Of a DNA stretch of 64,000 bases, positions 464 to 14,653 are shown piece after piece. This DNA is from Desulfuromonadaceae bacterium (GTDB lineage: Bacteria; Desulfobacterota; Desulfuromonadia; Geobacterales; Pseudopelobacteraceae): assembly GCA_028712075.1 (NCBI GenBank), contig JAQTQX010000002.1, positions 1 through 64,000 of the forward strand, given 5' to 3'. The translations under genes and the position numbers were made by a program. The notes under the pieces were generated by a model. That model was given only the letters and a program-made list of their open reading frames with translations, was not told the origin of the DNA and searched no databases. How positions within the stretch are numbered: the stretch's first letter is position 1; every line of letters starts with the position of its first letter.

Positions 464-464
464 G

Positions 465-1163: not shown

Positions 1164-1240
1164 GCTCTGTCTCCTTTGATTGATGGTGCAGGGAGACAGA
1201 AACCCCGAAGGGAGACGTATCTCCCCGATGGGGTTGGCAA
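1164..1240 (-). promoter_or_regulatory. Structured leader 1 (two-tier hairpin plus anti-SD)
   Basis: Outer stem AACCCC (1201-1206) with GGGGTT (1230-1235), inner stem GGGAGA (1210-1215) with TCTCCC (1220-1225), and 3-4-nt internal loops. Nearer the gene, nine bases at 1192-1200 are exactly complementary to the Shine-Dalgarno segment at 1166-1174, so the ribosome binding site of the gene at 465-1163 can be hidden in a hairpin. Same plan as the other nine leaders up to 14.2 kb. Confidence 0.75.
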
Positions 1241-1247
1241 TTGATGG

Positions 1248-1460
1248 TCAGGAAATCCTTCGGATGGTGCCGTCTTTGTCGGTGTACCATCCCGGTGGAA
1301 CCGACAAACCGTTCGAGACAACGAACATCATCTCGGGCCGGTGTTTGTTCCGTACCAAGTAGTAACCGCGGCCTTTTGAATCAAAGGCTTCATAGGCGGC
1401 CATGCCGTTGGGGTCGTTCATGGGCTGCCAAGCGAGACCGCTGAGGTCCTTTCCTCTCAT
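1248..1460 (-). CDS. Small hypothetical protein (70 aa)
   Basis: A 70-residue soluble protein rich in Gly, Arg and aromatic residues, ending in a tract that reads PPGWYTDKDGTIRRIS. Its ATG overlaps the stop of the upstream gene (1457-1918) by four bases, which indicates translational coupling. Leader 1 follows its stop directly. Family not recognised. The coupling and the conserved surroundings are the main reasons to accept it. Confidence 0.6.
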   Translation of the reverse strand: MRGKDLSGLAWQPMNDPNGMAAYEAFDSKGRGYYLVRNKHRPEMMFVVSNGLSVPPGWYTDKDGTIRRIS

Positions 1461-1918
1461 GGCACCGCTCCTTCCCCGGACCCGTGGAGATTGTATTCGT
1501 TGTCTCCACTTTCTCCATTCTCTTCCCGTTCATCATGGATGCCCGGCTCGTCGAGCACTACAAGCAGCACCGTGTCGGTTTCCCACCGAACATCAGTATG
1601 TTTGTAATAGCCCGACCAGAAGAAATCACTGTCGGTGACGTTTAGAGTATTACACTCCATCCGTCCCTCGAATTCCTTCAAGGCTACCTTGCCATTGTCC
1701 GGTTCGGCATCCCAGTCAGCCGCCATGAAATCACAGGCATGGTTGAATTCGCTGATTTTGTAGGCTTTCATCTGCCTTACAACCACCGCAAGTTTCTTGA
1801 TCCGCTCGATGTGCGTGGCATCAAGATCGATGACGGCATAGTCAGCGTTGTCAGAGAAGAACTCGCTGTTGTCGTGAACGGGAATGATGATGCGTTTTCC
1901 TGTGATTGTGTCTGTCAT
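1457..1918 (-). CDS. Hypothetical protein (153 aa)
   Basis: A 153-residue acidic protein without membrane segments or recognisable motifs. It starts with ATG at 1918 behind CAAGGAGACT and is preceded by leader 2. It is coupled by a 4-nt overlap to the 70-residue gene downstream. Function unknown. It sits just after the methyltransferase-helicase gene, so it could be an accessory to that protein or a general backbone protein; nothing in the sequence decides. Confidence 0.65.
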   Translation of the reverse strand: MTDTITGKRIIIPVHDNSEFFSDNADYAVIDLDATHIERIKKLAVVVRQMKAYKISEFNHACDFMAADWDAEPDNGKVALKEFEGRMECNTLNVTDSDFFWSGYYKHTDVRWETDTVLLVVLDEPGIHDEREENGESGDNEYNLHGSGEGAVP

Positions 1919-1985
1919 TACAGTCTCCTTGTTGTATGCGGAGACCGATCACCCCGGCGGGGAATCGATCCCCGCGAGGGTAGTG
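1919..1985 (-). promoter_or_regulatory. Structured leader 2
   Basis: Outer stem ACCC (1951-1954) with GGGT (1978-1981). Inner stem GCGGGGA (1957-1963) with TCCCCGC (1969-1975). GGAGAC (1940-1945) is complementary to GTCTCC (1923-1928), the complement strand of the Shine-Dalgarno of the gene starting at 1918. It lies between the stop of the methyltransferase-helicase and that start. Confidence 0.75.
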
Positions 1986-1994
1986 ATGTATGTT

Positions 1995-4900
1995 CTAAGC
2001 GCGTTTCCGCAGTGGTGCGGGTGAACGCAGATAGACACCGAACAGGGTGAACTCCAGGGCTCCAGAATCCAGCAAGGTCTGGTACATGCCGAATGGCAAG
2101 TCCCGAGAGACCTCTCTGCCGCCTTCACAATGGATGACGGAAATGGATGGTGGAGTTGGAGCAGGTTCCGGTCTGGTGACCGGCAGTTGGATGATGTTAT
2201 TCTTGATCGGTGTCATTGCTTTGTTGTCCCCCCTGACTCGGGCATTCTCGTGCTGGGTCATCTTCTTCAACAGGGACGACGGGTCCGTGTAGTTAAAGTT
2301 CCCCTCCTTGAGCGCTTTTGTCATCAGGGATGAAAACGACTGGCTGCTGCTGCATTCAGCCGGGTCGATGTCCGGTGTTTCCCCTTCCGCGAGCTTGGCG
2401 ACCATCCTCTTCTCCAGGGTGTAGGCAAGCTGCAGTGCCTGGACTTCCGAAGAGGTGAGATACCAGTAACGAACGGGACGAACTTCCCCGAACTGGGCCC
2501 GGTGGATGTCAGCGGTATTGACACGACGGATTCTACCGTCTCCCTGCTCTGCCAGTCTGGTGTTGGACGTGTAGTCGTACCAGACGAGGTTATTGAACTG
2601 GGATAGGTTGAGACCCGTGGCGACGCGGTGGAACGAGACAACAACGACCTGAGCCGTTACCTGCTCGAACCAGCCGACCAGCTTTTCTGGAGCAACCGAG
2701 TCGGGCAGGATCTCAATGCTGGCGCCCTGCACGTTATCCCGAAGGATGCGTTTCAAGACGGGGCGCATGTCGATCTTCTGCGTATTGCCTGTATAAACCA
2801 GCAGACGCTCTCCCCTGTCGATCACCCCCTGGGCGATACCGATCAGTTTTTCTTCTTTTTCCAGCAGCAGCTCCCCGTCGGGAAGCGACAGCCGGTGCAG
2901 CGTGCCAAGCGGAATATCCCGCAGTTTCAGTTCGTCGTTGTAATGCCGGAACGTATCGCTTACGCGCAGGAACGCGGCATTGCGGACGGCTGCAGCTGCC
3001 AGGAGGTCTTCCGGCGGCAGGTCTGCCTTGTCAATGATGTTTTCGATGCTCCGGTGACAGGTTTCCACCAGGGCGTGTGATTGACACTTGATGACCTCCC
3101 GTTCCACCGGTGGCAGGTCGTCGAAGTCGTCACTGTCCACGTTGACGAAGTTGGGAATCGTAAAGATCAGGGCTGCCGGTGAGATGCCAGCCGTATCGTA
3201 GGTGGTGACACGCTCTGATTCACGGTGACGGTTTTTCTCATCGGTTTTCCTGACGGTCTTGAACGCTCCATACTTGGTCTGGAAATCAGTAGCCGACTTC
3301 ATCTCCCAGCCGGCACTCCGCATTTGCATTGGATTCAACCCCCACAGGATGTTGTAGATGGATTTCGCCATACCGTTGGTCACGGTGGCGGTGAGGGCGA
3401 GAACCTTTTTGGAGGTTGCCGCAAGCCGGATGAACGCGGTCCCCTGGTTACTCATCAGGTTGGCCGCGTTGTGGGCTTCGTCGAAGATGGCAAGGTCGAA
3501 CGGTATCCGCTTCAAGAGCCGGATGTACGGAAGCTGCTTGTTGTGCGTCCTGGCTTCCGTGGCGGTACCGTTGCTTTCGATCTCGCTGATCCAGCGACGA
3601 TAGGTCATGACAGGTCGGTCATTTTCAGGAATATAGGTAAAGAGCGGTTCGCCGCAGTACGAGCACTTGGGTTTGTCACCCTTGCGGATCTTCTCGGACA
3701 GAGGCGAACGGCATGATGGGCAGACTTCCGTGTATTCAACGGAGCTGTGGCCATCCTTCTTGACGATGGTTTTGCGACTCTTGATGCAGAGCCGGTATTT
3801 CGGGTGCATCCTGAGTCGTGTGTAGGCAATCAGGTAGAGACCGTGCGGCCTGGTTGTGGCAAGTTCCTTCAGGGCTTCCCATGAGTCGATGACATGCACA
3901 CTGAATCCCTCGTTGGCGTATTCCTTTGCCAACTGGGGGATGAGCTGCGGTTCCGATACCATCACCGTGCGTTTTGCCTCAGTGAGGTACTTCACCGCTT
4001 TCGCCATCCAGGTTTTGCCCGTGCCGGTGTTAGCACGAATGCCAATGCCCCGGCGTCCTGAGCGGTAAGCCTTGATGACTGCCTTGACTGCTTCCCGTTG
4101 TGGTGGGAGCAGACCGATCCCCTGCAGTTCATCGATCAGGTATGCTTCGTCCTGACCGATTTCATGGAGGGGTTGGTAGAGCCGCGAGAGTTTCTGCAGA
4201 AGCACCGATGAGAGACGGCTGTTGAGTTCATAGTAGTCGAACCCGTGTTCCCGGGCCGGCTTGACGTACCCATGGCGGTCCATCAGAAATGCTTCAACGG
4301 TGGGCTTGCAGACCATCGTCTCGCAGTTGTTTTCCGGGTCTTTGAAGGTCTCGGTTTTGGTGATGACCATGAATTTGGCCAGGAAGAAGTCGCCGTTGAT
4401 GGTGACGGATTCTATCTGGCTGTTCATGGCTGCCAGTTGGACGGCATGTGCCGTTCGCAGGGTTGAAATGGGCTGGATGCTGGTGTCGTAGGACGACGGA
4501 TACTGCCGGTCCAGCACCATGACTGCCGCCTTGTCAAGCCGATCCTCACACTCCCGGTAGAACTCCGTGAGGTCGCGGGCCGTCATGAGCGGGCGGTTGC
4601 TGCCATTGCTGCCGCCAAGGGAAAGAGTCTGGCGTTTGCCTGGCACGGTGTACTTTACCCGTGTCGCTCCTTCCCCCAGGTTGGCAGCGGGCCAACTTTG
4701 GAAACGTGTGTACTGACGATAGATTTCGCTGCTGTTGTCCTGGTTCTTTGCCAGAAACACGACCACCTGCTTGAAACGGGCGTATTCCTCGCTCTGGAAG
4801 GCGTAGGCAAACGGAAATGTCCCGTGGATGATGTTCAACAATCTCCCTTTCAGTTCGTACTCGGGAATGATGAGGACCATCACTCCTTCATAGGCCAGCA

Positions 4901-5351
4901 GAGGGGCTGTCTTTTCCATCCAGGTGATCAGTTCGTTGCCGGCGGCCTTGTTGTAAGGTGGATTCAGCAGGATCAGATTGAACTTACCGGAAAGCTCCAC
5001 GTCGAAGAACGATGAGTTGAGTTTCTGGGTTGTCCCGTGAATCCTGTCAAACCTGCCGGCGTCCAGTTCAACGGCATATGAAAGGATTTCGTGAGGTGAA
5101 CCGTTGGAGGCGGCATAGCGTCGCTTGAGCCAGCGGATCACTGTGGTCAGGAATTCGCCTGAACCCGCACAGGGGTCAAGGACTGAAATGGTTTTCAGGG
5201 CATTGTAGCGCCGGCTTTTCCAACCGAATGACGGTTCCAGAATACGGAGTATCGTCTGAACGTCTGATGGAAAGGTCGGGTAGTACCCCTTGTTCAGTTC
5301 ATTCCCCCGGGTGCGGGAAAACGAGCTGTTGATGGTAGTGGTAAGTTCCAT
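1995..5351 (-). CDS. Adenine-specific DNA methyltransferase / DEAH helicase fusion
   Basis: 1118 residues. Residues 1-250 look like a class I SAM-dependent N6-adenine methyltransferase: SAM-binding motif DPCAGSGE at 59-66 and catalytic NPPY at 130-133. Residues from about 410 form an SF2 helicase: Walker A around NTGTGKT (441-447), four cysteines of a zinc ribbon at 544, 547, 563 and 566, DEAH at 624-627, and a late motif with QGDGRIRR. No nuclease motif is visible. It resembles the DUF6094-type enzymes and the methyltransferase-helicases used by phages and conjugative elements for DNA protection. Methylating the element against host restriction while tracking on DNA is therefore a reasonable inference; an orphan defence or regulatory role is the alternative. 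Preceded by leader 3. Confidence 0.85.
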   Translation of the reverse strand: MELTTTINSSFSRTRGNELNKGYYPTFPSDVQTILRILEPSFGWKSRRYNALKTISVLDPCAGSGEFLTTVIRWLKRRYAASNGSPHEILSYAVELDAGRFDRIHGTTQKLNSSFFDVELSGKFNLILLNPPYNKAAGNELITWMEKTAPLLAYEGVMVLIIPEYELKGRLLNIIHGTFPFAYAFQSEEYARFKQVVVFLAKNQDNSSEIYRQYTRFQSWPAANLGEGATRVKYTVPGKRQTLSLGGSNGSNRPLMTARDLTEFYRECEDRLDKAAVMVLDRQYPSSYDTSIQPISTLRTAHAVQLAAMNSQIESVTINGDFFLAKFMVITKTETFKDPENNCETMVCKPTVEAFLMDRHGYVKPAREHGFDYYELNSRLSSVLLQKLSRLYQPLHEIGQDEAYLIDELQGIGLLPPQREAVKAVIKAYRSGRRGIGIRANTGTGKTWMAKAVKYLTEAKRTVMVSEPQLIPQLAKEYANEGFSVHVIDSWEALKELATTRPHGLYLIAYTRLRMHPKYRLCIKSRKTIVKKDGHSSVEYTEVCPSCRSPLSEKIRKGDKPKCSYCGEPLFTYIPENDRPVMTYRRWISEIESNGTATEARTHNKQLPYIRLLKRIPFDLAIFDEAHNAANLMSNQGTAFIRLAATSKKVLALTATVTNGMAKSIYNILWGLNPMQMRSAGWEMKSATDFQTKYGAFKTVRKTDEKNRHRESERVTTYDTAGISPAALIFTIPNFVNVDSDDFDDLPPVEREVIKCQSHALVETCHRSIENIIDKADLPPEDLLAAAAVRNAAFLRVSDTFRHYNDELKLRDIPLGTLHRLSLPDGELLLEKEEKLIGIAQGVIDRGERLLVYTGNTQKIDMRPVLKRILRDNVQGASIEILPDSVAPEKLVGWFEQVTAQVVVVSFHRVATGLNLSQFNNLVWYDYTSNTRLAEQGDGRIRRVNTADIHRAQFGEVRPVRYWYLTSSEVQALQLAYTLEKRMVAKLAEGETPDIDPAECSSSQSFSSLMTKALKEGNFNYTDPSSLLKKMTQHENARVRGDNKAMTPIKNNIIQLPVTRPEPAPTPPSISVIHCEGGREVSRDLPFGMYQTLLDSGALEFTLFGVYLRSPAPLRKRA

Positions 5352-5440
5352 GCCTGTCTCCTTGGTAACAGGGGGCAGGCGGAGATAACACCCTCGCCGT
5401 TCGGGGAGGAGGTTAAAACCGCCTACCCGCAGAGGGATAG
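5352..5440 (-). promoter_or_regulatory. Structured leader 3 (most divergent copy)
   Basis: Outer stem CCCTC (5391-5395) with GAGGG (5432-5436). The interrupted inner stem pairs 5404-5414 with 5417-5428. The sequence differs from the other copies but keeps the two-tier shape. The Shine-Dalgarno here is caged by another pairing, CCTGT (5353-5357) with ACAGG (5368-5372), which puts AAGGAG in the loop. It controls the methyltransferase-helicase start at 5351. Confidence 0.65.
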
Positions 5441-5459
5441 AAATTATTGTTTCTTCGTC

Positions 5460-5729
5460 TCAGTGATCCCAATAGCGCCGGTCATACCAGCGGCCATTGA
5501 TCTTGATGCGGTTGTCGGCATCGATGGGAACGAAATGGTCATAACTGCCGCCTTCCATAAGGACTGTGCAGCGTCCCGTTCCGCCTTCCACCGTTGGTCC
5601 GAAGCCGGATATGTAAAACTGCCACTCTCCGTGAGTACCGTTACGATAGACTTCACGGTGCTGAATGTAGCCGTTTTTGACAATCCGGCGTTCCCAGTTG
5701 TCCGAAACCCGTTCAATTGGGTAACGCAT
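5460..5729 (-). CDS. Hypothetical protein (89 aa), beta-rich
   Basis: 89 residues with many Tyr, Trp and Arg and no membrane segment; the pattern suggests a small beta-sheet protein. Its start lies inside the 3' end of the upstream gene (17-base overlap), so it is probably translated by coupling. Not recognised. It ends just before leader 3. Confidence 0.6.
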   Translation of the reverse strand: MRYPIERVSDNWERRIVKNGYIQHREVYRNGTHGEWQFYISGFGPTVEGGTGRCTVLMEGGSYDHFVPIDADNRIKINGRWYDRRYWDH

Positions 5730-6276
5730 GGTGTTCCTCCTTCTCGATGGTGAAGTGCGCTGTTGTGGGAGGCATCTTGAGACCGCCGTACTTGAGCCGG
5801 TTTACTATCTCCGACTTGAGTTCGTGGGCCCGGAATTTCCAGCACCGCTTGTTTCCCACAAGAGGCTCTATTTCCGTGGATACTTCGTTGAACAGCACCT
5901 CGTACCAATCGCGATGGACAAACTCCCGTTGATCGAGAATCCTGGTAAAGACCTGGTAGCAATCCGCCTTCGAGGTGCCGATCAGAAACGACGAGTCGGA
6001 CGACGGCGTGATGTATGCCCCCGAATACCCTTCGCCCATTTTCGGTATGACCCTCAGGGGATGATTACTCCAGATGTTGATGGATCTGTCTTCTTTACCG
6101 TGACATTCAAGTGAACCCTTCATGGCAAGAATCTGGGCGAAAGCCCGAATCTCCTGAGTGGGTCCGTAGGCGGTGAGATAGAAGAGATTGCGGGCGCCGG
6201 GCACAGAATCGTCCAGGAACAGATCCCGGCAGATGATTGTTGCCGACGCCTTGTCGTTTGAGATGGTTATTTTCAT
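5713..6276 (-). CDS. Hypothetical protein (187 aa)
   Basis: I start this gene at ATG 6276 (MKITISNDKA), behind GAGGAGAA and leader 4. A longer upstream reading in the same frame runs through the leader and is not credible. The protein is soluble, about 187 residues, with a basic C-terminal half. No family recognised. It forms a two-gene unit with the 89-residue protein downstream. Confidence 0.65.
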   Translation of the reverse strand: MKITISNDKASATIICRDLFLDDSVPGARNLFYLTAYGPTQEIRAFAQILAMKGSLECHGKEDRSINIWSNHPLRVIPKMGEGYSGAYITPSSDSSFLIGTSKADCYQVFTRILDQREFVHRDWYEVLFNEVSTEIEPLVGNKRCWKFRAHELKSEIVNRLKYGGLKMPPTTAHFTIEKEEHHALPN

Positions 6277-6352
6277 GGGTTCTCCTCGTGTAATACCGAC
6301 GGAGAACGCACATCTCCCTGTGGGGAATGGCATTCCCCGTCGGGGTGTGATC
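6277..6352 (-). promoter_or_regulatory. Structured leader 4
   Basis: Outer stem CCC (6316-6318) with GGG (6342-6344). Perfect inner stem GGGGAAT (6322-6328) with ATTCCCC (6332-6338). The anti-SD GGAGAAC (6301-6307) exactly matches GTTCTCC (6279-6285) over the Shine-Dalgarno. This Shine-Dalgarno differs from those of leaders 1, 2 and 8 (GAGAAC rather than GAGACA), and the anti-SD has changed with it. Confidence 0.75.
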
Positions 6353-6361
6353 ATGAAATGA

Positions 6362-8080
6362 TTACTTTGTGAGTTTATCCTGAAGCATACCGAAAAGCGC
6401 AGGTGGCAGTTCTTCGACGCTATATACGACGCCGTAGGTCGGGAAGATCGTTCGTACCGACTCCTCGCAGATACCAAGCCCCATGGGCTCGATACCTTGC
6501 TCCAACAACCACCGGATTGCTCTTTTGGTGGTTCGCAGGTCATCAGGCTCGCCATCAGTTACACTGAGCAGAATTTTCCTGGGTTCCTCCCTTTTGAGCA
6601 ATTCCACCCCAGCCCAGTACAGTGCCTGAGCCAGAGGTGTGCCACCGCCTGCCGACATCCCGAATTTGGACGAGCAGGGACGCTCTCCAAACCGCACCAA
6701 AGGTGCTACCCCATCGCTGTTGCCGACTGGAAACGCGGCAACGGCAGCAAAACATCCAGGTATTGAATCAAGGGCCTCTGCAACAACATATGCAGTTTTA
6801 GATGCAACCTCGATTTTCTGGTGTTGCATACTCCCGCTCCTGTCCACGAGGATCATAATGGCGGTATTGACCTCCGTCTTCTCCTCCTGATGCAGAAACA
6901 GCCTGGTGTCGTGTAATGCGAGACGATGCACCACCCGGTTATCTATCTTGCTACCGGTGCGGCGTGCATGACGTCTCCTCAGCCGGCTTGCCTGGATTAA
7001 TCCGCTAAGCCGGGCTCTGAGCAGCGCCGTATGTCTTCTGATTTCATGAATATCGATGGGAAAGGTGCGCAGAGAGGCCTCCGGTGGAAGCAGAACGCCA
7101 CCCCGATTGCCAACAGTTTCACCCTCCGTTATCAGTTCTTGTTTGAGAATTTCACCGACATCGCCAAATCCGCCAGGATCACAATCGAGCATTTCCTGAA
7201 GAGTCTCGGGATTACCACCCAATTCCCCACCGGAACCACTCTTGGGAACAGGAGGCGACGGATTGCCTGCAGCTTGGGACTGAGAATCATCGCCTGCTGC
7301 AGTACCGGTGCTATCACCATCGGGTGATGAATCGCCGGTACCCTGTTCCGGTTCTCCTGACTGCTGGTCAGTGCCGGATGCCTGATTGTCTTCTTCCTGA
7401 TCATCGGAACTGCCATCAGGTTTTGACCCATCAGAGCTGCAGGTGGTTTTCGCCTTCTGGTCTTCCTGACGTTTCCGTTCCTGCTCCTGTTGGTGTTTTA
7501 CATCACGGATCAACCGCAGGATCTCCTCCGCCATGGATTGTGAGTCCCTGGTGGAGACGAGATTCGGAATTCTCTCGGTCAGGTCCAGCAACTTTTTGTA
7601 TCCGGTGCCGAGAAACCCGTTGACCGTACTGCTGGTCATGGCAAGAATGTCACTGAAGTCCTGATTCAAGGTTAGCCGCCCCCTGGCGCAAAGCCATGCC
7701 AGTAGAGTCTGCGGTGGGTCTTGAAGTGACGGTGTGAAACTCCCCTGTTGCTTCAGGTGCTCGGCCAGATCTTTCAAATTAGACCGGCACCCGGGATACT
7801 TCGCTCCCATCATCTTCTCGATACGGATGTCTTCAAGAATGTTTGTCAGGCACTTGAGCATGGAGGTACTACTTTTAACGGTGAAATCCGTGAACCGGAT
7901 GTGGGCGCTCTCGTGGTCGATATAGCCACGGGCAAGCAGTGCCGCCTCTTTGCTGTCCGGCAGGGACGGAAGATTAATAATCTGTCCGTTGGTGTACGCC
8001 TGGTCGCCGGAGATCTGTACTTGAATGTCGTATTTTTCCCCGAGCGCCTTGGCAACCAGGGGTAGTGTGGTGTGTTTCAT
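6362..8080 (-). CDS. CobT/NorD-like vWA-domain protein with HExxH motif
   Basis: 572 residues. The N-terminal domain has HESAH at 56-60 and NILEDIRIE at 80-88, a zincin-like pair also seen in CobT-like proteins. A low-complexity acidic linker runs from about 200 to 290. The C-terminal von Willebrand A domain has the metal-ion-dependent adhesion motif DRSGS at 413-417. In MoxR/CobS-vWA pairs the ATPase remodels a target bound by the vWA protein; the partner ATPase is two genes upstream (9395-10318). It starts nine bases after the DUF3150 stop, with its Shine-Dalgarno overlapping that stop. Substrate unknown; a role in cobalt chelation is unlikely because there are no cobalamin genes nearby. 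Confidence 0.85.
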   Translation of the reverse strand: MKHTTLPLVAKALGEKYDIQVQISGDQAYTNGQIINLPSLPDSKEAALLARGYIDHESAHIRFTDFTVKSSTSMLKCLTNILEDIRIEKMMGAKYPGCRSNLKDLAEHLKQQGSFTPSLQDPPQTLLAWLCARGRLTLNQDFSDILAMTSSTVNGFLGTGYKKLLDLTERIPNLVSTRDSQSMAEEILRLIRDVKHQQEQERKRQEDQKAKTTCSSDGSKPDGSSDDQEEDNQASGTDQQSGEPEQGTGDSSPDGDSTGTAAGDDSQSQAAGNPSPPVPKSGSGGELGGNPETLQEMLDCDPGGFGDVGEILKQELITEGETVGNRGGVLLPPEASLRTFPIDIHEIRRHTALLRARLSGLIQASRLRRRHARRTGSKIDNRVVHRLALHDTRLFLHQEEKTEVNTAIMILVDRSGSMQHQKIEVASKTAYVVAEALDSIPGCFAAVAAFPVGNSDGVAPLVRFGERPCSSKFGMSAGGGTPLAQALYWAGVELLKREEPRKILLSVTDGEPDDLRTTKRAIRWLLEQGIEPMGLGICEESVRTIFPTYGVVYSVEELPPALFGMLQDKLTK

Positions 8081-8089
8081 GGCGGCCTC

Positions 8090-8980
8090 CTAGAAAAACC
8101 ATTCGCTGGGCAAGCTTACCGGCTCAGCGGATTTGGTTTCGAGAAGGATGGTTTCGGCAACCTCATCTTCTTCATCTGCCGGGACTTCATCCAGCGGCAA
8201 ATCGCCGAGGACATGCAATATCCCGATAAGTGAGGTGAGATTCCGTCCTTCAATGGGACCGCTCTTTGGTAATGAGACCAGTACTTCTTCAATCTGAACA
8301 GCCAGAGTAAGCAGGTAGGGAGAGAGGAACTCAAGACCACGCAATTTGTCGAGCATGGACTTGATCGGGCGTAGCGCTTTCCGGGTTACTGAAGGGCGTC
8401 CCTTGTACGACTCCTCCCAGGCTTGCCTGGCTTGTTGATTGATTTCAAAGATCAGCCGTTCTGACAGGGTACTGGCATGTTCGTTCAGCCCCTTGTCCAG
8501 TCCGTCGATGTTCTTGACCTTGAACGCCTGGACTGCGAAGCCCAGACGGCGTGCCGCTGTTGACGCTGGTTCTACTCCCTTTTCGATGATGGCTGCCCAT
8601 TCGGGGTTCGCATCAATCCATTCCCTCAGACTGCGGTCGTATTCCGATAGAAATTCCTGTTTCTCCTTCTCAAACTCATCCCGGACACCGTCGAGGATCT
8701 TCATCACCTCGTCGGCCTTATCCTCTGGTATGGCATAGCCACCGAGGAATCTGACTCCTACCGCTTCACACTGCCGTTCGGCACGACGCTTCAGGGCGCT
8801 GAATACGGCAAGTTTCTCCGGGTCGCAGATCTTCTTGCTACCGAGAGTGGCCAGTTTTTCGGGAGGGAGTTTGGAAAAGTCGAGTCCAAGGTCTTCCGGC
8901 GAGAGTTTCTTCCGGCCAGTCCAGAGTGAAATGGACAGGGACACAACTACCAGCTTTGAAAGTATTTCGTTCATGTTCAT
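8090..8980 (-). CDS. DUF3150 domain-containing protein
   Basis: 296 residues, mostly helical, charged, no membrane segment. It matches DUF3150 by overall character and by its place between a MoxR-type ATPase and a CobT-like vWA protein, the family's usual company. It ends in EWFF, almost the same tail as the WGR protein encoded next door (DWFF). It starts behind AAAGGAGA and leader 5, and is followed at nine bases by the vWA gene. Function unknown; probably an adaptor or substrate of the ATPase-vWA machine. Confidence 0.75.
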   Translation of the reverse strand: MNMNEILSKLVVVSLSISLWTGRKKLSPEDLGLDFSKLPPEKLATLGSKKICDPEKLAVFSALKRRAERQCEAVGVRFLGGYAIPEDKADEVMKILDGVRDEFEKEKQEFLSEYDRSLREWIDANPEWAAIIEKGVEPASTAARRLGFAVQAFKVKNIDGLDKGLNEHASTLSERLIFEINQQARQAWEESYKGRPSVTRKALRPIKSMLDKLRGLEFLSPYLLTLAVQIEEVLVSLPKSGPIEGRNLTSLIGILHVLGDLPLDEVPADEEDEVAETILLETKSAEPVSLPSEWFF

Positions 8981-9051
8981 TCTCCTTTGATCAGTATGAT
9001 GGTGTGATCAAGGGAGGCCCCCAACAGGGAGAAGGCCTCCCCTGTAGGGCG
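8981..9051 (-). promoter_or_regulatory. Structured leader 5
   Basis: Outer stem GCCC (9017-9020) with GGGC (9047-9050). Inner stem CAGGGAG (9025-9031) with the CTCCCCTG run (9037-9044, one bulge). The Shine-Dalgarno region 8982-8993 pairs with 9005-9016 over 11 base pairs with one mismatch, anchored by TGATCAA/TTGATCA. It heads the DUF3150-vWA unit. Confidence 0.7.
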
Positions 9052-9384
9052 TTAGAAGAACCAGTCCTTGGTGTTTGCACCGGACATGAGATCCTTCATG
9101 ATTGTTTTGTCGGTCTGTTTACGTGGTGTTGGCTGGACAGGTTCACGAGGCGGCGATGAGGCAACTTCGTAGTACCCTTTGGCCAGCTTTTCCTTCTTCT
9201 TCTTGGAAACAAACGTGAATGCCTCGGACATTGAGTTGACGTCATAAGACTTCGTCTGCCCCTGGCTTCGCGTTGGCCCCCAGTTGACCGTAACCCGTGG
9301 CGGATCGTCATGAATCTGGGCGATCCAGAACTTGCCGCCAGCTGTAGTGCTGCACTGGAGGTGGAGATGCTGTCGTAATGCCAT
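9052..9384 (-). CDS. WGR-domain protein (110 aa)
   Basis: I use ATG at 9384 (MALRQHLHLQ), 10 bases after the upstream AAA+ gene's stop. Residues 10-70 fit a WGR domain: the WGP stretch, the GQTKSYD core and the KGYYEV end are in the usual order. WGR domains occur in PARPs and many bacterial proteins and bind nucleic acid or mediate contacts. A proline-rich tail ends in DWFF, matching the tail of the DUF3150 protein. It is probably part of the MoxR-vWA module. Confidence 0.75.
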   Translation of the reverse strand: MALRQHLHLQCSTTAGGKFWIAQIHDDPPRVTVNWGPTRSQGQTKSYDVNSMSEAFTFVSKKKKEKLAKGYYEVASSPPREPVQPTPRKQTDKTIMKDLMSGANTKDWFF

Positions 9385-9394
9385 GTAGCACCCC

Positions 9395-10318
9395 CTATCC
9401 GCCGAAGACGCGTTGCGCCAGTTCGTGCAACGCCTCGCGGCTTTCCGGCTCTGCTCGGTACCCGAGAGCACGATCAAGAGCATGGATGATCGGGTTTTTC
9501 CCTTCAGCAGATGCCGGGCGGAAGAGATACACAAGCTTCGCCCATCTGACGAGGGTTCTGGTGGAGAAAGTGACTTCTATTTCCCCTTTGATGAAGAGTT
9601 TGCGGATTTCGTTGGCGTAGGATACCAGTGCTTCCCTGACCGTATCAGCCAGGCTGGGCATGGCTTTGGCCAGAATCTGTCTTTCCTGGACTTCGTCAGG
9701 ATAGTCGACTTCAACCATCCAGAAACGATCCAGAAATGCGCCGTTCTGCCGTAAGGTCCCTTGATAGAGACCTGAGCGATCACCGCTGCCGGCGGTGTTG
9801 GCTGTCGCAATGAAGCGAAAGCCTGGTGCCGGCTTGATGACTTCACCACCCTTTTCCGGAATGGTGAGGGGTCTTCCTTCGACGATACCGTTCAAACCTG
9901 CTGCAGTAGCGGGATCGAGCAAGTCGATCTCGTCCAGCAGGAACCAGTGACCTTCTTTCATGGCCATGGCGAGCGGTCCGTAGACGTACTCCATCGAGTT
10001 GTTGACGATTACGTGATGCCCCACAAGTTCCGGGGTTTCGAGTCTGCTGTGCCCTGTGACGACCATGACCGGAATATTGAGCCGGGCAGCGGTCTGCAAG
10101 ACAATCGAAGACTTGCCGCTGCCGGTCGGACCGGTCAGGTACAGGCCGTCGTTGGCGCCCATCATGTACCAGGAAAGTACATCCGACAGGATTTCCTTCC
10201 TGAACACATAGTCGCTGTCAACTTCAGGGATAAATGGGTTGTCGGACTGAGGCCGACCTTCCACGCAGAGACTCTCTTTCACAGGAATATTGAATATGTC
10301 CTTGATGCTATATTTCAT
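9395..10318 (-). CDS. MoxR/CobS-type AAA+ ATPase
   Basis: 307 residues. Walker A GPTGSGKS at 63-70, Walker B FLLDEID, a sensor-1 ATANTAG stretch and an arginine-finger region around NGAFLDRF identify the MoxR/CobS branch of AAA+ ATPases. Members form hexamers that use ATP to remodel complexes held by vWA partners, here most likely the product of 6362-8080. The start overlaps the TSCPD gene by 11 bases. With DUF3150, WGR and TSCPD proteins it forms a compact five-gene module. Confidence 0.9.
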   Translation of the reverse strand: MKYSIKDIFNIPVKESLCVEGRPQSDNPFIPEVDSDYVFRKEILSDVLSWYMMGANDGLYLTGPTGSGKSSIVLQTAARLNIPVMVVTGHSRLETPELVGHHVIVNNSMEYVYGPLAMAMKEGHWFLLDEIDLLDPATAAGLNGIVEGRPLTIPEKGGEVIKPAPGFRFIATANTAGSGDRSGLYQGTLRQNGAFLDRFWMVEVDYPDEVQERQILAKAMPSLADTVREALVSYANEIRKLFIKGEIEVTFSTRTLVRWAKLVYLFRPASAEGKNPIIHALDRALGYRAEPESREALHELAQRVFGG

Positions 10319-10721
10319 GGTGATCAGCTCCTTGTCCGATTTGGTTAAGTGCTGCGAAGTCAGCTTCCTCGATGAGGTCGTTGAGATCGCGCCCTGTTTT
10401 CATATGCTCCAAAACGATGCCTATGGATTCGGCAACGCAATTGAGGCAGGTATTGGCCCCGAGATGACAACCTATGCCGGTGAGAGCCTTGAACGCATCG
10501 GTTGGCTCCAGTCCCGAACGGAGACCGTAGGAGACCAGGCGAGCGATACCATCGGCCATGGCAGAACCACAACCTCCGGCCTTGCCGAAGCGGATGAAGA
10601 CTTCCATTGGTGCAGCTGTTGTCGGGGACATGGTGACGGTAGTGTAAATTTTCCCGCAGGCAGACCGGCGTTCGATGGTGAAGCCGGGAACAGCCTTGGG
10701 TCGTGGAATTTTAGGACTCAT
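10308..10721 (-). CDS. TSCPD-domain protein
   Basis: 137 residues. The stretch from FTIERRSACGKIYTTVT to CLNC, with FIRFGKAGGCG and GIGCHLG, matches the TSCPD domain found at the C-terminus of B12-dependent ribonucleotide reductases and as stand-alone proteins. Four of its five cysteines are in the second half and could bind metal or be redox active. No reductase catalytic domain is present, so it is not a nucleotide reductase by itself. It leads the unit with the AAA+ ATPase and WGR genes, behind leader 6. Confidence 0.8.
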   Translation of the reverse strand: MSPKIPRPKAVPGFTIERRSACGKIYTTVTMSPTTAAPMEVFIRFGKAGGCGSAMADGIARLVSYGLRSGLEPTDAFKALTGIGCHLGANTCLNCVAESIGIVLEHMKTGRDLNDLIEEADFAALNQIGQGADHHEI

Positions 10722-10800
10722 GGATGCCTCCTTGTATTGACGGCGGGATACCTCTCCTTTGCGGAGATGACATGCATTCCGCCAAGGGTGATGGTTAATT
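10722..10800 (-). promoter_or_regulatory. Structured leader 6
   Basis: Outer stem CCTT (10756-10759) with AAGG (10784-10787). Inner stem GCGGA (10761-10765) with TCCGC (10778-10782). The two-tier shape is kept although the bases differ from other copies. I could not find a good anti-SD for the AAGGAGGC site of this gene, the only copy where that part fails. Confidence 0.6.
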
Positions 10801-10820
10801 TCGCTGTCCTACTAAGACAT

Positions 10821-11090
10821 CTACGAGGGGGGAAGTAGGCGCCAGGCGGTGATGATTCTTGGTGAACCATTTACCAGGCGGGCCACGACGAAAACCCCCT
10901 TGTACCTGAATTTGAGTGGTTTCGTGTTGAGGAGAGGCAGAAGATGACGAACACCTTCGAGAGCTTCCAGAGGGATGTCACGTTCCAGAACCCGGTTGGC
11001 TCCGTGCAACGAGAGATTAACCTCATTCACAACGGCATCAGTCGAGCCCGTATCCTCTTCTGTATAGATGGCAATGGTTGGCTCCGTCAT
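10821..11090 (-). CDS. Hypothetical protein (89 aa)
   Basis: I start at ATG 11090 (MTEPTIAIYT), which overlaps the stop of the upstream membrane peptide by four bases; a longer start at 11108 is less likely. The protein is soluble and ends in a basic beta-rich segment. No family recognised. Confidence 0.6.
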   Translation of the reverse strand: MTEPTIAIYTEEDTGSTDAVVNEVNLSLHGANRVLERDIPLEALEGVRHLLPLLNTKPLKFRYKGVFVVARLVNGSPRIITAWRLLPPS

Positions 11091-11287
11091 CCGCGCACCT
11101 CCTCCCACCCCACAGGATGAACCTGCGGTTCAGGCGCTGCTGCGGCAATCATGAACATGAAAAGCATCGCCGCGATGAGCAACAGTGAGGCAATGGCATG
11201 CAGGACCTCTTTCAGGTCTTCATGCCTTTTCTCACAGGAGAAGGATTTAAGGTCGGGGGGCAGCGTGCCGGTACGATAGATTTTCAT
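11087..11287 (-). CDS. Small membrane protein (66 aa)
   Basis: Starts at ATG 11287 (MKIYRTGTLPPD) behind AAAGGAGATT and leader 7. Residues about 31-50 form one hydrophobic segment (LLLIAAMLFMFMIAAAA), so this is a single-pass membrane peptide with a basic N-terminus. Coupled to the 89-residue gene downstream. Function unknown. Confidence 0.6.
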   Translation of the reverse strand: MKIYRTGTLPPDLKSFSCEKRHEDLKEVLHAIASLLLIAAMLFMFMIAAAAPEPQVHPVGWEEVRG

Positions 11288-11368
11288 CGGGAATCTCCTT
11301 TCAATGGGGGCGCACGCCTCCAAGAATGGAGATTTCCCATGGGGAGCGTAACGCCCCCTTGTGGGGTT
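11288..11368 (-). promoter_or_regulatory. Structured leader 7
   Basis: Outer stem CCC (11336-11338) with GGG (11363-11365). Inner stem GGGG and GCG (11341-11348) with CGC and CCCC (11352-11358). The anti-SD is ten pairs with one bulge: 11328-11338 against 11289-11298. The anti-SD and the outer stem share 11336-11338, so the two folds exclude each other, as expected of a switch. Confidence 0.75.
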
Positions 11369-11371
11369 GGA

Positions 11372-12346
11372 TCAGGCCGCCTGTGCTGCGAGCGGCATGA
11401 ATGGTTTGATTTCAAGCTTCAGAAAGCCAGACTTCGGTTTCGTGACTTGATCATAGATATCCGGATACGAGTTTTTCAGCTTCTTGCTGTCGACGATTAC
11501 CGAGTCTGACACTGATGTGACATTAACAAGGATACCGTCCGAAGCCCCTTTATACGCACCATTCACAAAAGTGAGGATGTCGTTTTTCAGAACTTCCAGA
11601 CGAGTGTCGAGAGCTTTTTTCTGCTCGTTCAATTCCAGGTATGCTTTGCTGGCTTGATGGATTTCCGGAGGAAGTTCCATATCAACCACATGCGAAGGGC
11701 AATCCTGGCGAAACGTGCAATAACCGCAGAGAATGCCTGGTTCCGTTCTAGGTGCACACTCGCCTCGCGTTGCCGATAGGATGTGCTGAGCTTTTTCCAT
11801 AAGCTGATTAAACACCAGCCTGTTGGGTGCATAGTTATTGAATTCCCGGTATGTTCCAGCATTTAAGTCAACCACTAGAATTGATCCGCCGATTTGCACT
11901 TCCGGATCGAGGGTGAGTTGCAGCAGGCCCATCTGGACGTGCAGCTGATCCACCCAGGATGCGTAAGGTTCATCGGGGATGCCATCGGTCGACTTCATCT
12001 CCACGATGTGCAGCCTTTTGGTCTGCCGGTTCGCATAGAACAGAAAGTCAATGTGACACCTGATTTCAGGGATGTCCGGGTGACGTACTTCGACTTCTTC
12101 CTCGAAGAGGGCGCCGCCAGTCTTGAAGAACTCGGCATACATGGCTTGCGCAGCATGGCCACGGGAAAAGCGCAGGAGTGTCGAGATGTCGTGACTGGAC
12201 GGGCATTGTTTGCCGAGAGCCGCTTTACGCGGGCAGCCAGCAATGTCGGAGGCTCCGACGTACACAGTTCGGTCACCAAGATGTGATGATTGTTTCTTTT
12301 GATGGGTCGGAATAGCACGTCCCAGAAATGCAGCGAGTTTGCTCAT
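11372..12346 (-). CDS. Cas4/RecB-like PD-(D/E)XK nuclease with Fe-S cysteines
   Basis: 324 residues. The nuclease core shows a conserved His near residue 64, Asp100 (CHIDFLF) and the E-x-K pair at 116-118 (VEMKS), the PD-(D/E)XK signature. One cysteine at 38 (GCPRKA) plus C207, C210 and C216 match the 4Fe-4S cluster of Cas4/AddB-type nucleases. No CRISPR locus is present. With the putative annealing protein (12648-13604) and SSB (13714-14133) upstream it resembles the exo-bet-ssb recombination cassettes of SXT-type elements, so a 5'-end-processing exonuclease is the likeliest role. Confidence 0.8.
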   Translation of the reverse strand: MSKLAAFLGRAIPTHQKKQSSHLGDRTVYVGASDIAGCPRKAALGKQCPSSHDISTLLRFSRGHAAQAMYAEFFKTGGALFEEEVEVRHPDIPEIRCHIDFLFYANRQTKRLHIVEMKSTDGIPDEPYASWVDQLHVQMGLLQLTLDPEVQIGGSILVVDLNAGTYREFNNYAPNRLVFNQLMEKAQHILSATRGECAPRTEPGILCGYCTFRQDCPSHVVDMELPPEIHQASKAYLELNEQKKALDTRLEVLKNDILTFVNGAYKGASDGILVNVTSVSDSVIVDSKKLKNSYPDIYDQVTKPKSGFLKLEIKPFMPLAAQAA

Positions 12347-12358
12347 GGCTGTCTCCTT

Positions 12359-12523
12359 TCAAATCAGAAACGGCAGGGTCCCGACTGCGGTGAGCAGGGA
12401 ACCGAAAATAACGCCGGCAATGATTCTGGTGACATCGATGCTGATCTGTCGCTCCTTAACGGGCGCATAGACCGGTATCTGACAGCCTTTGATTGTTACG
12501 TGTTTGATGATGTGGGTAGTCAT
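12359..12523 (-). CDS. Small membrane protein (54 aa)
   Basis: Starts at ATG 12523 (MTTHIIKHVT) behind CAAGGAGACAAG and leader 8. The C-terminal half is one hydrophobic helix (IIAGVIFGSLLTAVGTLPFLI). It is 12 bases upstream of the nuclease gene and probably co-translated. Not recognised. Confidence 0.55.
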   Translation of the reverse strand: MTTHIIKHVTIKGCQIPVYAPVKERQISIDVTRIIAGVIFGSLLTAVGTLPFLI

Positions 12524-12612
12524 GATCTTGTCTCCTTGTCTGTGGGTTGTACCCGGCAGAGGAGACAAGACACCCCCGGTAGGGAGAAAGTCGTTGTCTC
12601 CCTGCTGAGGTA
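12524..12612 (-). promoter_or_regulatory. Structured leader 8
   Basis: Inner stem AGGGAGA (12581-12587) with TCTCCCT (12597-12603). Weaker outer pairing of the C-run at 12573-12577 with GAGG (12607-12610). Anti-SD of ten perfect pairs: GGAGACAAGA (12561-12570) against TCTTGTCTCC (12526-12535). It heads the small membrane protein and nuclease unit. Confidence 0.75.
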
Positions 12613-12647
12613 GGTTGTGAGTGAGGTTCAGTCTGGAACGTCAGGCG

Positions 12648-13604
12648 TTACCGGTACTGCCAGCATTTGCCTTTGCCGTCCCATTTGAAACCGTGGTCTT
12701 TCAGCCATTGGCGGGCTGAGGTGTCGTTGAAGTCTGGGAAGGCGGAGATCTCCGATTCATCTGCGGAGAGTTCCATCCTGATTCCCTTAGCCGTCAGATA
12801 CCCGATGATCTCGGAAGTCGAAACTGGTTCGGCTCCGTGTGATGATGGGGTGCTGTCCGGTCTGGCAGACTGCGAATTACCGGAAGTAGTGCTGGTGTTG
12901 CCGGCACTGTTTCCTCCGTTGTGTTCCGTCTGTCCGTAAAGGTCAGGATCTTCCTCGATGTCCTGGGTGAAGATGTCCGAGGCAGCGGTTGAGGTGAGTA
13001 CTGCATCCACCAAGCCGCGTTTCTTAGCCATTTTCAGACAGGTGTTGTAGAAATCGGCAGGATTGTCGTGTTCGACTTTTTCTCCCTGCCTGGCGATTTT
13101 CCAGTTGCCGCTGTCATCCTTTTTTGCGCTGAAGCCGCGTCCACCAATGATCTCCTGTGCCAATGCCGGGTTCTCCTTACGAAGATCCCAGTACTCCCTC
13201 GGTACCGGCTTGTTCGTCAGTTCAACTGGACCGACACGGAAACGATACTTGCTTTCCATGGTCGAACATGAACCGACACCTGTACCGAGACGCTGGCCTG
13301 CCGGTGAGTAGAGCGTCACCTTGATGCGATACTCCCGATGGCCGAGATGCAGGTCGATGGTTTCCACATCCACGTCGTTAGCCAGTCTGAAGGTGAGCAT
13401 GAGCTTTTCGGCGCCCGGTTTGAGAAGAACTGCTTTGTCTCCGCAACCGGGAATTGTGCCGTAGTGCTCGCCTGATTTCATGACGTCACGCATGACGTAC
13501 TGGATCAGGTTTACCTGGGCCTTCAGTTCACTGATGTTGACGGCGTGGTGAGTGAGGGATGATGCGGTGGGACTAATGGGAATGATTTGAGCTGGTGCGT
13601 TCAT
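12648..13604 (-). CDS. Putative recombination (ssDNA-annealing type) protein
   Basis: 318 residues. The N-terminal 210 residues carry features of a family common in phages and mobile elements: EHYGTIPG, LLKPGAEKL, CSTMESKYRFR and MAKKRGLVDAVL. A Ser/Thr-rich linker (about 225-260) leads to a small C-terminal domain ending in WQYR. The family's biochemistry is not certain to me; the single-strand annealing idea rests on its neighbours, a Cas4-like exonuclease and SSB. Leader 9 precedes it. Confidence 0.6.
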   Translation of the reverse strand: MNAPAQIIPISPTASSLTHHAVNISELKAQVNLIQYVMRDVMKSGEHYGTIPGCGDKAVLLKPGAEKLMLTFRLANDVDVETIDLHLGHREYRIKVTLYSPAGQRLGTGVGSCSTMESKYRFRVGPVELTNKPVPREYWDLRKENPALAQEIIGGRGFSAKKDDSGNWKIARQGEKVEHDNPADFYNTCLKMAKKRGLVDAVLTSTAASDIFTQDIEEDPDLYGQTEHNGGNSAGNTSTTSGNSQSARPDSTPSSHGAEPVSTSEIIGYLTAKGIRMELSADESEISAFPDFNDTSARQWLKDHGFKWDGKGKCWQYR

Positions 13605-13695
13605 CTGTCTGTCTCCTTTTCTGTGGGTTGTGTCCGACAGAGAAGACAGACCAATCCCTTTGGGGATTTGGTAAAGTCTCCCCGTAGGACTGTTG
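13605..13695 (-). promoter_or_regulatory. Structured leader 9
   Basis: Outer stem TCC (13655-13657) with GGA (13687-13689). Inner stem GGGGA (13662-13666) with TCCCC (13679-13683). Anti-SD GAAGACAGAC (13642-13651) pairs over ten positions with GTCTGTCTCC (13607-13616), with one G-U. It precedes the putative annealing protein. Confidence 0.7.
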
Positions 13696-13713
13696 AGTTG
13701 TGGTTACTGGTTG

Positions 13714-14133
13714 TTAGAACGGATCGGTGTCATCGTGCGGAATGTCCTCATGTGTTTGGCTGTTTGATGGCTGGTCGTCACTCCCGTCAGGAATGCTGCC
13801 ATTTTTACTACCAAGCATAAGAAGCTTGTCGCCGATGATCTCGGTTGTGTAGCGATCTTTACCGTCCCGATCTTGCCATTTGCGGGTCTTGAGTTTGCCG
13901 TCGAGATAAACACTTTTTCCTTTCGACAGGTACTCGCCAGCTACTTCTGCGAGACGTGCGTAGAGGACGATGTTGTGCCACTCGGTCCGGATCTCCCATT
14001 CGCCACTTTTGGTTTTTACCTTTTCACTGGTCGCGAGTGAAAAACTTGCGACAGCGGTGCCTCCTGGTGTGTACCTGATTTCAGGATCACGACCCAGGTT
14101 GCCGATGAGTTCTACGCGGTTCAAACTTGCCAT
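13714..14133 (-). CDS. ssb: Single-stranded DNA-binding protein
   Basis: 139 residues starting at ATG 14133 ([12 protein letters not shown]). An OB fold with the standard SSB landmarks ([43 protein letters not shown]) is followed by a short acidic tail ending DDTDPF, the peptide that recruits partner proteins. It is the first gene of the 0-14.2 kb block and carries leader 10. A plasmid-type SSB protects single strands during transfer and serves the adjacent recombination genes. A longer N-terminal reading runs through the leader and is not used. Confidence 0.95.
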
Positions 14134-14225
14134 ACTGCCTCCTTGTTGGTTTTCCCGAAGCAAAGAGACAGATGTCTGTCCCGTAGGGAGAGAACAAAGT
14201 GTCTCCCGGTCGGGATGTGGTGAAA
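14134..14225 (-). promoter_or_regulatory. Structured leader 10 (ssb)
   Basis: Outer stem TCCC (14179-14182) with GGGA (14212-14215). Inner stem GGGAGA (14186-14191) with TCTCCC (14202-14207). The Shine-Dalgarno here is AAGGAGGC, and the anti-SD AAAGAGACAG (14162-14171) still pairs with CTGCCTCCTT (14135-14144) over ten positions, including two G-U pairs. Confidence 0.7.
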
Positions 14226-14653
14226 GTATCCGCCGCTTACAAGGCTTGTCGCGGATTTTGAACATCAAAAAACCCACTCCGGCCATTGCCAGAATAGGTC
14301 ACTGTTCTTCGTGATTATTGGTTATCAGATGCACGCGCTACATTGATGGGCGCACCTTCAGTTTGGATTCAAGTCGCATTACCCAATACGACTGATCGAG
14401 GAAGGCATAAGCCAGTCCTGGTGTCATCCGGAAAGGGGCAACTGCGGCCTTGTCTTTCCAGGTAGTTCATCCCTGCCGGGGGCATTTCTTCTTCGGGCTA
14501 TCCGAAAAAGTCTATCCGGGGCTCAAAGGCCGCACGGAGTCTCTTGAAAGAGTCTATAATACTGAAACGCTATCGATATTCCTCATACAAGTCAAGAGGA
14601 TTCACCCGGGACGACCCATTTGGCATCGTCCCGGTTCGACTGAAACAGAGTAA
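14226..14653. other. 428-bp intergenic region with long-range and local inverted repeats
   Basis: No credible gene. TGCGGCCTT (14443-14451) is repeated inverted as AAGGCCGCA (14526-14534), bracketing a G/C-rich hairpin-prone stretch. A second perfect nine-base inverted repeat, CCGGGACGA (14606-14614) with TCGTCCCGG (14626-14634), follows the end of the gene at 14654 and has no T-run. The promoter for the leader-controlled block should be here; TTGACT near 14590 on the minus strand with a weak -10 seventeen bases on is only a candidate. A transfer origin is possible but unproven. Confidence 0.4.

Follow-up and report, generated by a model that had tools for sequence, protein, structure and literature searches.

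To our knowledge, the control of translation by competing hairpins has usually been described as single cases ahead of single genes. In the translational attenuators of erm and cat genes, the Shine-Dalgarno (SD) sequence lies within a 3′ hairpin, and occupation of the 5′ arm frees a middle arm to capture the anti-SD strand. An intercistronic conformational switch in the atpHA mRNA of Escherichia coli was reportedly described by Rex et al. in 1994. Attenuators of the erm/cat type are treated in two accounts of macrolide and chloramphenicol resistance leaders (PMC5118997, PMC11264731), and PMC12548453, on an RNA-unfolding model of translational coupling, deals with intercistronic structure over the ribosome site of the next gene, which is thought to be opened by upstream translation. 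For Geobacter, PMC11109978 lists the yjbM and nifV motifs as structured RNAs. Each of the two accompanies a single gene, and they have three and four representatives; yjbM, which lies near the SD sequence and the AUG, is rich in GC. Here we describe a set of ten leaders in a 64,000-nucleotide stretch of DNA from a Desulfuromonadaceae bacterium (assembly GCA_028712075.1, contig JAQTQX010000002.1, positions 1 to 64,000; hereafter the window), in which they precede minus-strand gene units of the maintenance block, at 1.2-14.2 kb, of a conjugative element of soil and sediment bacteria.

A GC hairpin made up of an outer and an inner stem was found directly 5′ of a minus-strand start at all ten places, both by reading of the sequence and by folding of the 110 nucleotides upstream, which confirms the ten two-tier hairpins reported in the first-pass annotation. 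The outer and inner stems are present in all ten, with leader 3 as a three-tier variant. Two further helices had not been listed, and the conserved unit is not the single two-tier hairpin but a pair of competing folds that would close or open the SD sequence. In most leaders a second hairpin lies directly 3′ of the first, in which the folds pair a TGTCTCC-like strand with the SD strand AAGGAGACA. Sequence comparison gives six arms in the 5′ to 3′ order a (CCC), b (GGGGAGACA-like), c (CCCC), d (GGG), e (TGTCTCC-like) and f (AAGGAGACA-like, the SD strand). In the closed fold, a:d encloses b:c to form the hairpin of the first-pass annotation (hairpin A) and e:f covers the SD sequence. Since b resembles f, e can pair with b instead of f while c:d folds inside, and in the resulting open fold b:e encloses the small c:d hairpin and the SD sequence is free. 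As read from this comparison, the two helix sets on the six arms are mutually incompatible. We put at roughly 55% the probability that each leader is a bistable translational gate in a probably polycistronic mRNA, closed by default and opened through arm a.

Like the erm/cat attenuators, the leaders are predicted to hold the SD sequence in a 3′ hairpin (e:f in eight of the ten in the window), and the alternative pairing b:e would take the anti-SD strand and free the SD sequence. They differ in having six arms rather than four, with nested helices in both folds, and in being repeated before many genes of one element. No drug-stalled leader peptide was seen, without a systematic search for one, and the preceding frame is either a full gene or none. 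From the Geobacter yjbM and nifV motifs the leaders are set apart by the descriptions of those motifs, not by sequence comparison. We rate the leaders as a known kind of control, conformational access to the SD sequence, in a new six-arm form that is reused throughout a mobile element. They are not assigned to the erm/cat or the atpHA class, as no leader peptide has been demonstrated and dependence on upstream translation is a conjecture.

The ten leaders, the units that they precede and their arms are as follows:

1164..1235, minus strand: leader 1, unit 465-1163; hairpin A AACCCC..GGGGTT with inner stem GGGGAGA/TCTCCC; e TTCTGTCTCC with f GGAGACAGAG; b:e CGGGGAGATA/TGTCTCCCTG

1919..1982, minus strand: leader 2, unit 1457-1918; b GCGGGGATCGAT, e CGGTCTCC, f GGAGACTG; b:e of 12 positions

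5352..5435, minus strand: leader 3, before the gene of the DUF6094 helicase/methylase (1995-5351); variant of three tiers in which b:e (GGGTAGGCGG/CCGCCTGCCC) is strong and e:f weak

6277..6347, minus strand: leader 4, unit from 6276; b CGACGGGGAATGC, e TGTGCGTTCTCC, f GGAGAACCCATG; the predicted winner is the open fold

8975..9050, minus strand: leader 5, DUF3150 and CobT/VWA unit with its start taken as 8974; b CAGGGGAGGCC, e CTCCCTTGATCA, f TGATCAAAGGAG

10722..10791, minus strand: leader 6, unit of TSCPD, MoxR/CbbQ ATPase and WGR genes; hairpin A CCTTGGCGGA/TCCGCAAAGG; b:e TGGCGGAATGC/GTATCCCGCCG; e:f not clear

11288..11365, minus strand: leader 7, unit 11087-11287 with 10821-11090; e:f AATCTCCATTC/GAAAGGAGATT (AATCTCC/GGAGATT); competing helix GGGGGCG/CGCCCCC, the 3′ arm of which lies between e and f

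12524..12612, minus strand: leader 8, unit of a 54-residue gene and a RecE-like exonuclease gene; b GGGAGACAA, e GTCTTGTCTCCT, f AGGAGACAAGAT

13605..13692, minus strand: leader 9, unit 12648-13604; b GGGGAGAC, e ATTGGTCTGTCTTCT, f AGGAGACAGACAGAT

14134..14215, minus strand: leader 10, first of the block, ssb with its start at 14133; b GGGAGACA, e CTGTCTCTTTG, f CAAGGAGGCAG

Judged by the spacing to the SD sequence, 8974 is a more likely start for the gene of unit 5 than 8980. Over 57 nucleotides (12529-12585 and 13610-13666), leader 8 is 77% like leader 9. Both contain an additional hairpin (GGGTACAACCC type) within the e-f loop, which was also seen in leaders of the related loci L045, L013 and L014; it seems that one leader was duplicated into a position before another gene.

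Loose scoring with RNAduplex could not separate the leaders from other starts, and gap-free helices were used instead. On this scale e:f scores 19.5-27.5 in eight leaders and 14-14.5 in leaders 3 and 6. Fifteen control starts (eight within units and seven in the conjugation, or tra, operon) gave 12 scorable cases with scores of 11-17.5; one of the three left unscored is the tra control set at 20966, for which the open reading frame (ORF) start is 21169. A descriptor of the six arms accepts seven of the ten leaders with total scores of 70-80.5, and its nine other matches in the 64-kb window score 52.5-66.5. Nine of the ten leaders were matched by a covariance model, R1, at an expectation value (E) of at most 1, six of them at E ≤ 1e-3; leaders 1, 2, 4 and 5 are training rows of the model. 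The weaker matches are leaders 3 (E 0.022), 6 (E 0.034) and 10 (E 0.66), and leader 7 was missed. One weak extra match at 12344 (E 0.10) corresponds to the coupled exonuclease gene, and R1 found nothing across 14.6-64 kb of the window. Neither helix scores nor R1 placed a leader before genes within units or in the tra operon in the window, in agreement with the earlier statements that the leaders mark gene units and that the conjugation operon lacks them.

The pairing was found to be specific to each leader. When each e region was scored against the SD strand of every leader, and each b region against every e, with all ten leaders kept, own pairing exceeded pairing with others for e:f (means 21.6 and 17.2, p 5e-5, the lowest value that the test can give; own pairing best in four of ten rows) and for b:e (20.9 and 15.0, p 2e-4; best in five of ten). 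The same held for 45 non-redundant upstream regions of orthologues (e:f 18.4 against 15.3, b:e 17.1 against 13.9, both p 5e-5), where own pairing ranks first in just three (e:f) and seven (b:e) of the rows. These regions were picked by protein homology and not by structure, near-duplicates (more than 75% similar) and regions shorter than 112 nucleotides being left out; many of the starts come from protein alignments and may be off, and none was dropped for that reason. The ten leaders and the 45 regions, together with the model-aligned rows for e:f, b:c and c:d, make up the material that is free of structural selection.

Among the rows aligned by R1, b:c is leader-specific (own against other p 2e-4, the floor; 71 non-redundant rows) and the c:d hairpin scores 12.5 against 8.7 in shuffles (standard deviation, sd, 0.22). 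A second alignment, A2, holds 144 distinct rows from the best 150 of the 186 matches found with R1 in 21 loci; R1 contains b:e and no e:f pairs, so that b:e on these rows is fitted, and the model-aligned rows include some partial matches on the opposite strand. In A2, e:f pairs in 82.8% of cells, against 77.9% when shuffled and 42-54% when slid, and 49 cells are changed on both sides against 18.2, a number that none of 500 shuffles reached. When complete e arms are exchanged between 77 rows, e:f pairs in a mean of 459 of 616 cells (sd 4.5), down from 492. As the alignment A1 (32 leaders) and the 85 leaders folded below were picked by a helix descriptor, their pairing percentages are inflated; in A1, b:e pairs in 79.6% of cells with 39 two-sided changes against 18.3 in shuffles, and e:f in 84.7% with 18 against 4.8, the e:f pairs that show two-sided changes numbering 7 against 3.6. 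The own-against-other tests and the model-aligned rows bear out the earlier claim that the shape of the RNA is kept while its letters change. At a score of at least 70, the descriptor accepted 110 of 1665 starts tested in the loci of relatives, which are redundant, as compared to six of 603 in reversed sequence and three of 2260 shuffles.

Relatives show compensated changes that involve three arms at once. The arms b/e/f occur as GGCGGAC/GTCCGCC/GGCGGAC, as GAGACT/AGTCTC/GAGACT, as GAAGAC/GTCTTC/GAAGAC (L074) and, outside the class, as GAAGC/GCTTC/GAAGC. Examples are the leaders of a RadC-family gene in L005 (b GGGGGCGGAC, e GTCCGCCCTC, f GGAGGCGGAC), of L045, which is pSD (b GGGGAGACT, e AGTCTCC, f GGAGACT), of L011 (b GGGAGACGAA, e TTTCGTCTCC, f GGAGACGAAA) and of L074 (b GGGGGAAGAC, e GTCTTCCCCC, f GGAGGAAGAC). 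The form outside the class comes from an 11-kb contig (L088) of genome G383, of the same phylum and another class, which has four model matches at E ≤ 0.05 and five strict descriptor matches. Two of its five leaders carry the GAAGC form, the one at 8203 having b GGGGGAAGC, e GCTTCCTCC and f GGAGGAAGC, and the others carry further letters. Since the letters of b, e and f change together in relatives, the letters common to Geobacter leaders are not what is kept.

A covariance-model search of relatives, which the first-pass annotation had proposed, showed a wide distribution. With its b:e helix and sequence, R1 gave 186 matches at E ≤ 1 in 21 loci (431,359 bases). In genome searches, where filters were stricter and weak matches were lost, matches were found in 54 of 141 genomes of the order (E ≤ 0.1), in 41 of 277 of the class (E ≤ 1e-4) and in six of 395 across the phylum (E ≤ 1e-5), one of these lying outside the class. 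Among the named carriers are the plasmids pPRO1 of Pelobacter propionicus and pSD of Geobacter anodireducens. Most matches in the fetched regions lie in clusters; some are single, and several of those are on short contigs or at region edges. No match was obtained in a distant-mode search of plasmids with leader 5 or in a near-identity search of phages with the block, and four loci with relatives of the DUF6094 protein or its domain (L047, L098, L099, L101) have no strict descriptor match. Searches of open-licence papers in PubMed Central brought up no earlier report of such leaders. The recurrence of the design with different letters suggests a previously unrecorded family of RNA switches in related elements.

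Six strict descriptor matches in a GC-rich Thermus plasmid (L100, Thermus thermophilus JL-18 pTTJL1802), two of them at annotated coding-sequence starts (5424 and 13853), were not counted as members. Many genes of this plasmid have short GC hairpins with GGGGCCC-like arms shortly before their SD sequences (for example at 4363, 4653, 7495, 9089, 15697, 16669 and 17502), which are simpler than the leaders.

The unpaired positions bear on what the leaders might recognize. In 71 rows, the columns of the a-b spacer and of the A, c-d and e-f loops hold 0.03-0.39 bits. The informative exceptions lie outside these loops, namely the AA of the SD sequence and, at 1.46 bits, the T that directly precedes e. 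The conserved columns include those of the outer C and G arms. UNCG and GNRA tetraloops spotted by eye in the c-d hairpin occur in five of 85 leaders and are not supported. A small-molecule riboswitch with hairpin A as its aptamer would explain the two competing folds that control SD access, as translational riboswitches are established to use competing pairing over the SD sequence. We consider it very improbable, since the low information in the loops argues against an aptamer: no conserved unpaired core was found in the 71 rows. Rfam 15 gave no match at the gathering score in the 64-kb window, as expected from the earlier view that the leaders belong to no named RNA family, and a sub-threshold scan of positions 1-15000 gave a single match on the opposite strand (Guanidine-III, 18.2 of 36 bits, E 5). 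No metabolic theme common to the genes behind the leaders was seen, and they do not appear to point to one metabolite.

The path of folding was followed with growing transcripts of 85 non-redundant leaders, chosen by descriptor from 28 loci, in energy models that ignore pseudoknots and ribosomes. Hairpin A dominates after d has been made in 78 of the 85, b:e just before f in 80 and e:f in the full-length RNA in 70. The whole path from A through b:e to e:f is followed by 60 of the 85 leaders and by three of 34 matches in reverse controls. Five of the seven window leaders in the set follow it; leader 1 keeps A before f, and leader 4 ends open. The closed fold is more stable than the open one by a median of 5.2 kcal/mol. 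When arm a is barred from pairing, the number of leaders in the open fold rises from 15 to 37 of 85, and it reaches 47 with a and the spacer barred and 36 with arm c barred; barring d, the b-c loop or the e-f loop gives no rise (15, 9 and 4). According to these models the full RNA is usually closed, b:e wins before f is made and blocking a shifts the balance towards the open fold. The SD sequence held in a hairpin would also suit an RNA thermometer, which we reject as having next to no probability, for the energy model still forms e:f in 65 of the 85 leaders at 60 °C as compared to 70 at 37 °C.

A same-strand ORF of at least 55 codons ends within the 300 nucleotides searched upstream of 84 of the 85 leaders, leader peptides and stall motifs not having been searched for systematically. 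The leader begins -2 to 42 nucleotides after the stop codon in 57 of the 84, the stops being assigned to the longest nearby ORF, which may be wrong in places. This closeness makes upstream translation the first candidate for the trigger. The mRNA would be closed by default, and a unit would be turned on when arm a is held or unwound during synthesis. The likeliest opener would be a ribosome arriving at the stop codon of the gene before, some 0-40 nucleotides upstream in two thirds of the leaders, so that each unit of the block would hand translation on to the next; a protein or small RNA that acts on arm a or c would have the same effect. Intercistronic placement near an upstream stop is shared with the atpHA type of coupling switch, the 27 remaining leaders and leader 10 being exceptions. 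The leaders differ from atpHA in the alternative helix b:e with its three-arm compensated changes, in the presence of about ten leaders in one element and in being found across a bacterial class.

Two other readings concern the same intercistronic positions. The first-pass annotation had proposed one signal or one RNA-binding protein for the whole block, and a regulator acting in trans, an RNA-binding protein of the element or a small RNA, could read the shape of hairpin A and set all leaders together, for example closing them after establishment in a new host. Its appeal lies in the recurrence of one shape ahead of ten units in a single element and in numerous relatives of that element, in leaders such as leader 10 that are not beside an upstream stop, and in the conserved outer C and G arms. 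We regard it as possible but doubtful: the loop columns carry little information, the letters of b, e and f change wholesale between leaders, no gene emerged as a candidate, a systematic presence/absence search not having been made, and a ribosome acting in cis fits the usual placement at least as well. Alternatively, RNase III could cut a long b:e hairpin; the cistrons would come apart, and with e gone the SD sequence would stay open. Most leaders are indeed intercistronic, and b:e helices lie between gene units, many of them 8-16 positions long. Many of them are nevertheless short by the requirement of RNase III, and processing leaves the leader-by-leader keeping of e:f and b:c unexplained, which makes it an unlikely account.

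Several observations weigh against the bistable gate. Leaders 3 and 6 have no clear e:f. Pairs with two-sided changes are no more frequent than in shuffles for b:e in A1 (7 against 6.8) or for e:f in A2 (4 against 3.6), and the identity of letters between b and f is weakly above permutation (414 against 397.4, sd 6.2, maximum 425). Among the 71 rows chosen by the model, b:e forms before f in 60, e:f at full length in 43 and both in 39. The heuristic barriers to refolding are about 20-26 kcal/mol (medians 21.4 from open to closed and 20.5 from A to b:e before f), so that the equilibrium path may not be followed. Barring all of a to b from pairing leaves e:f closed in 81 of the 85. The mean predicted accessibility of the SD sequence (0.28 for the ten leaders, 0.38 for eight intra-unit genes and 0.32 for seven tra genes) does not set the leaders apart. 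As for the trigger, 27 of the 84 leaders lie more than 42 nucleotides from the stop found, the gap has no fixed length or preferred distance, many gaps exceed the reach of a terminating ribosome as given by its footprint, and leader 10, in front of ssb, has no upstream ORF of at least 55 codons ending within reach. A pure relay is disfavoured by the variable distance, by the leaders that have no stop nearby, by the high barriers and by the two leaders of the window in which e:f is not clear. It is a tentative proposal that the leaders are ligand-free six-arm gates of a previously unrecorded kind, with which a conjugative element runs a polycistronic block as a translational relay by RNA topology and not by a repressor.

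In the window, leaders precede ssb and genes for a RecE-like exonuclease, the DUF6094 helicase/methylase, a MoxR/CbbQ ATPase, DUF3150, CobT/VWA and TSCPD proteins and proteins of no assigned function, one such family standing at the place of an annealing protein. In relatives the genes behind leaders include those for RecT (L073), an AAA_24 protein (L011) and RadC (L005, L083). As the leader is kept where the downstream gene is not homologous, it seems to belong to a position in the block rather than to a protein. The gene at 12648-13604, in the RecT position, has no Pfam match and fits phrog_10048, a phage family of unknown function, and the L073 relative has RecT there; it is possibly an unrecognised single-strand annealing protein. 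Seven genomes from five genera and two families, that of the window included, share the MoxR-like ATPase (9395-10318) at 99.7-100% identity, which indicates recent transfer of the element.

Promoters of the leading region that act as single strands (Frpo type; see PMC9849209), with their -35 and -10 hexamers within the folded hairpin, stand in front of ssb and recombination genes, and so do the leaders. A role at the level of DNA, either as repressor operators or as folded promoters during single-stranded entry of the element, is nevertheless even less probable than the riboswitch. The leaders are bound in placement and pairing to the SD sequence and to a single strand, an operator would have no use for compensation across three arms that include the SD strand, and a scan of the duplex sequence of the window gave six sigma-70-like promoter sites against a shuffle mean of 8.2, none of them inside a leader. 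Terminator-like sites in the window are likewise not above shuffles (19 against a mean of 15.7, sd 4.3); three of the 19 are on the minus strand inside leaders 8, 9 and 10. A consensus scan placed one such hairpin at the edge of the block:

14271..14300, minus strand: hairpin like an intrinsic terminator, with a T tail, between the tra operon and ssb

This hairpin is a possible transcript boundary. Just upstream of leader 10 there is an imperfect inverted repeat at 14229-14254 (CCGCGACAAGCCTTGTAAGCGG on the minus strand), parts of which were also seen upstream of ssb in L005, L006, L008, L011 and L016.

The leaders present one design that is reused before ten units of one element, and also in related elements of several families, with its topology kept as the letters change. 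They offer many natural variants of one switch, in which the opening of a downstream cistron by an upstream ribosome or factor can be tested directly. They point to a layer of control in conjugative elements, over genes for single-strand binding, annealing, exonuclease and helicase functions, that is absent from Rfam. If the proposed mechanism is true, the topology of RNA, in place of a repressor, would govern the genes for ssb, recombination and helicase functions in a mobile element.

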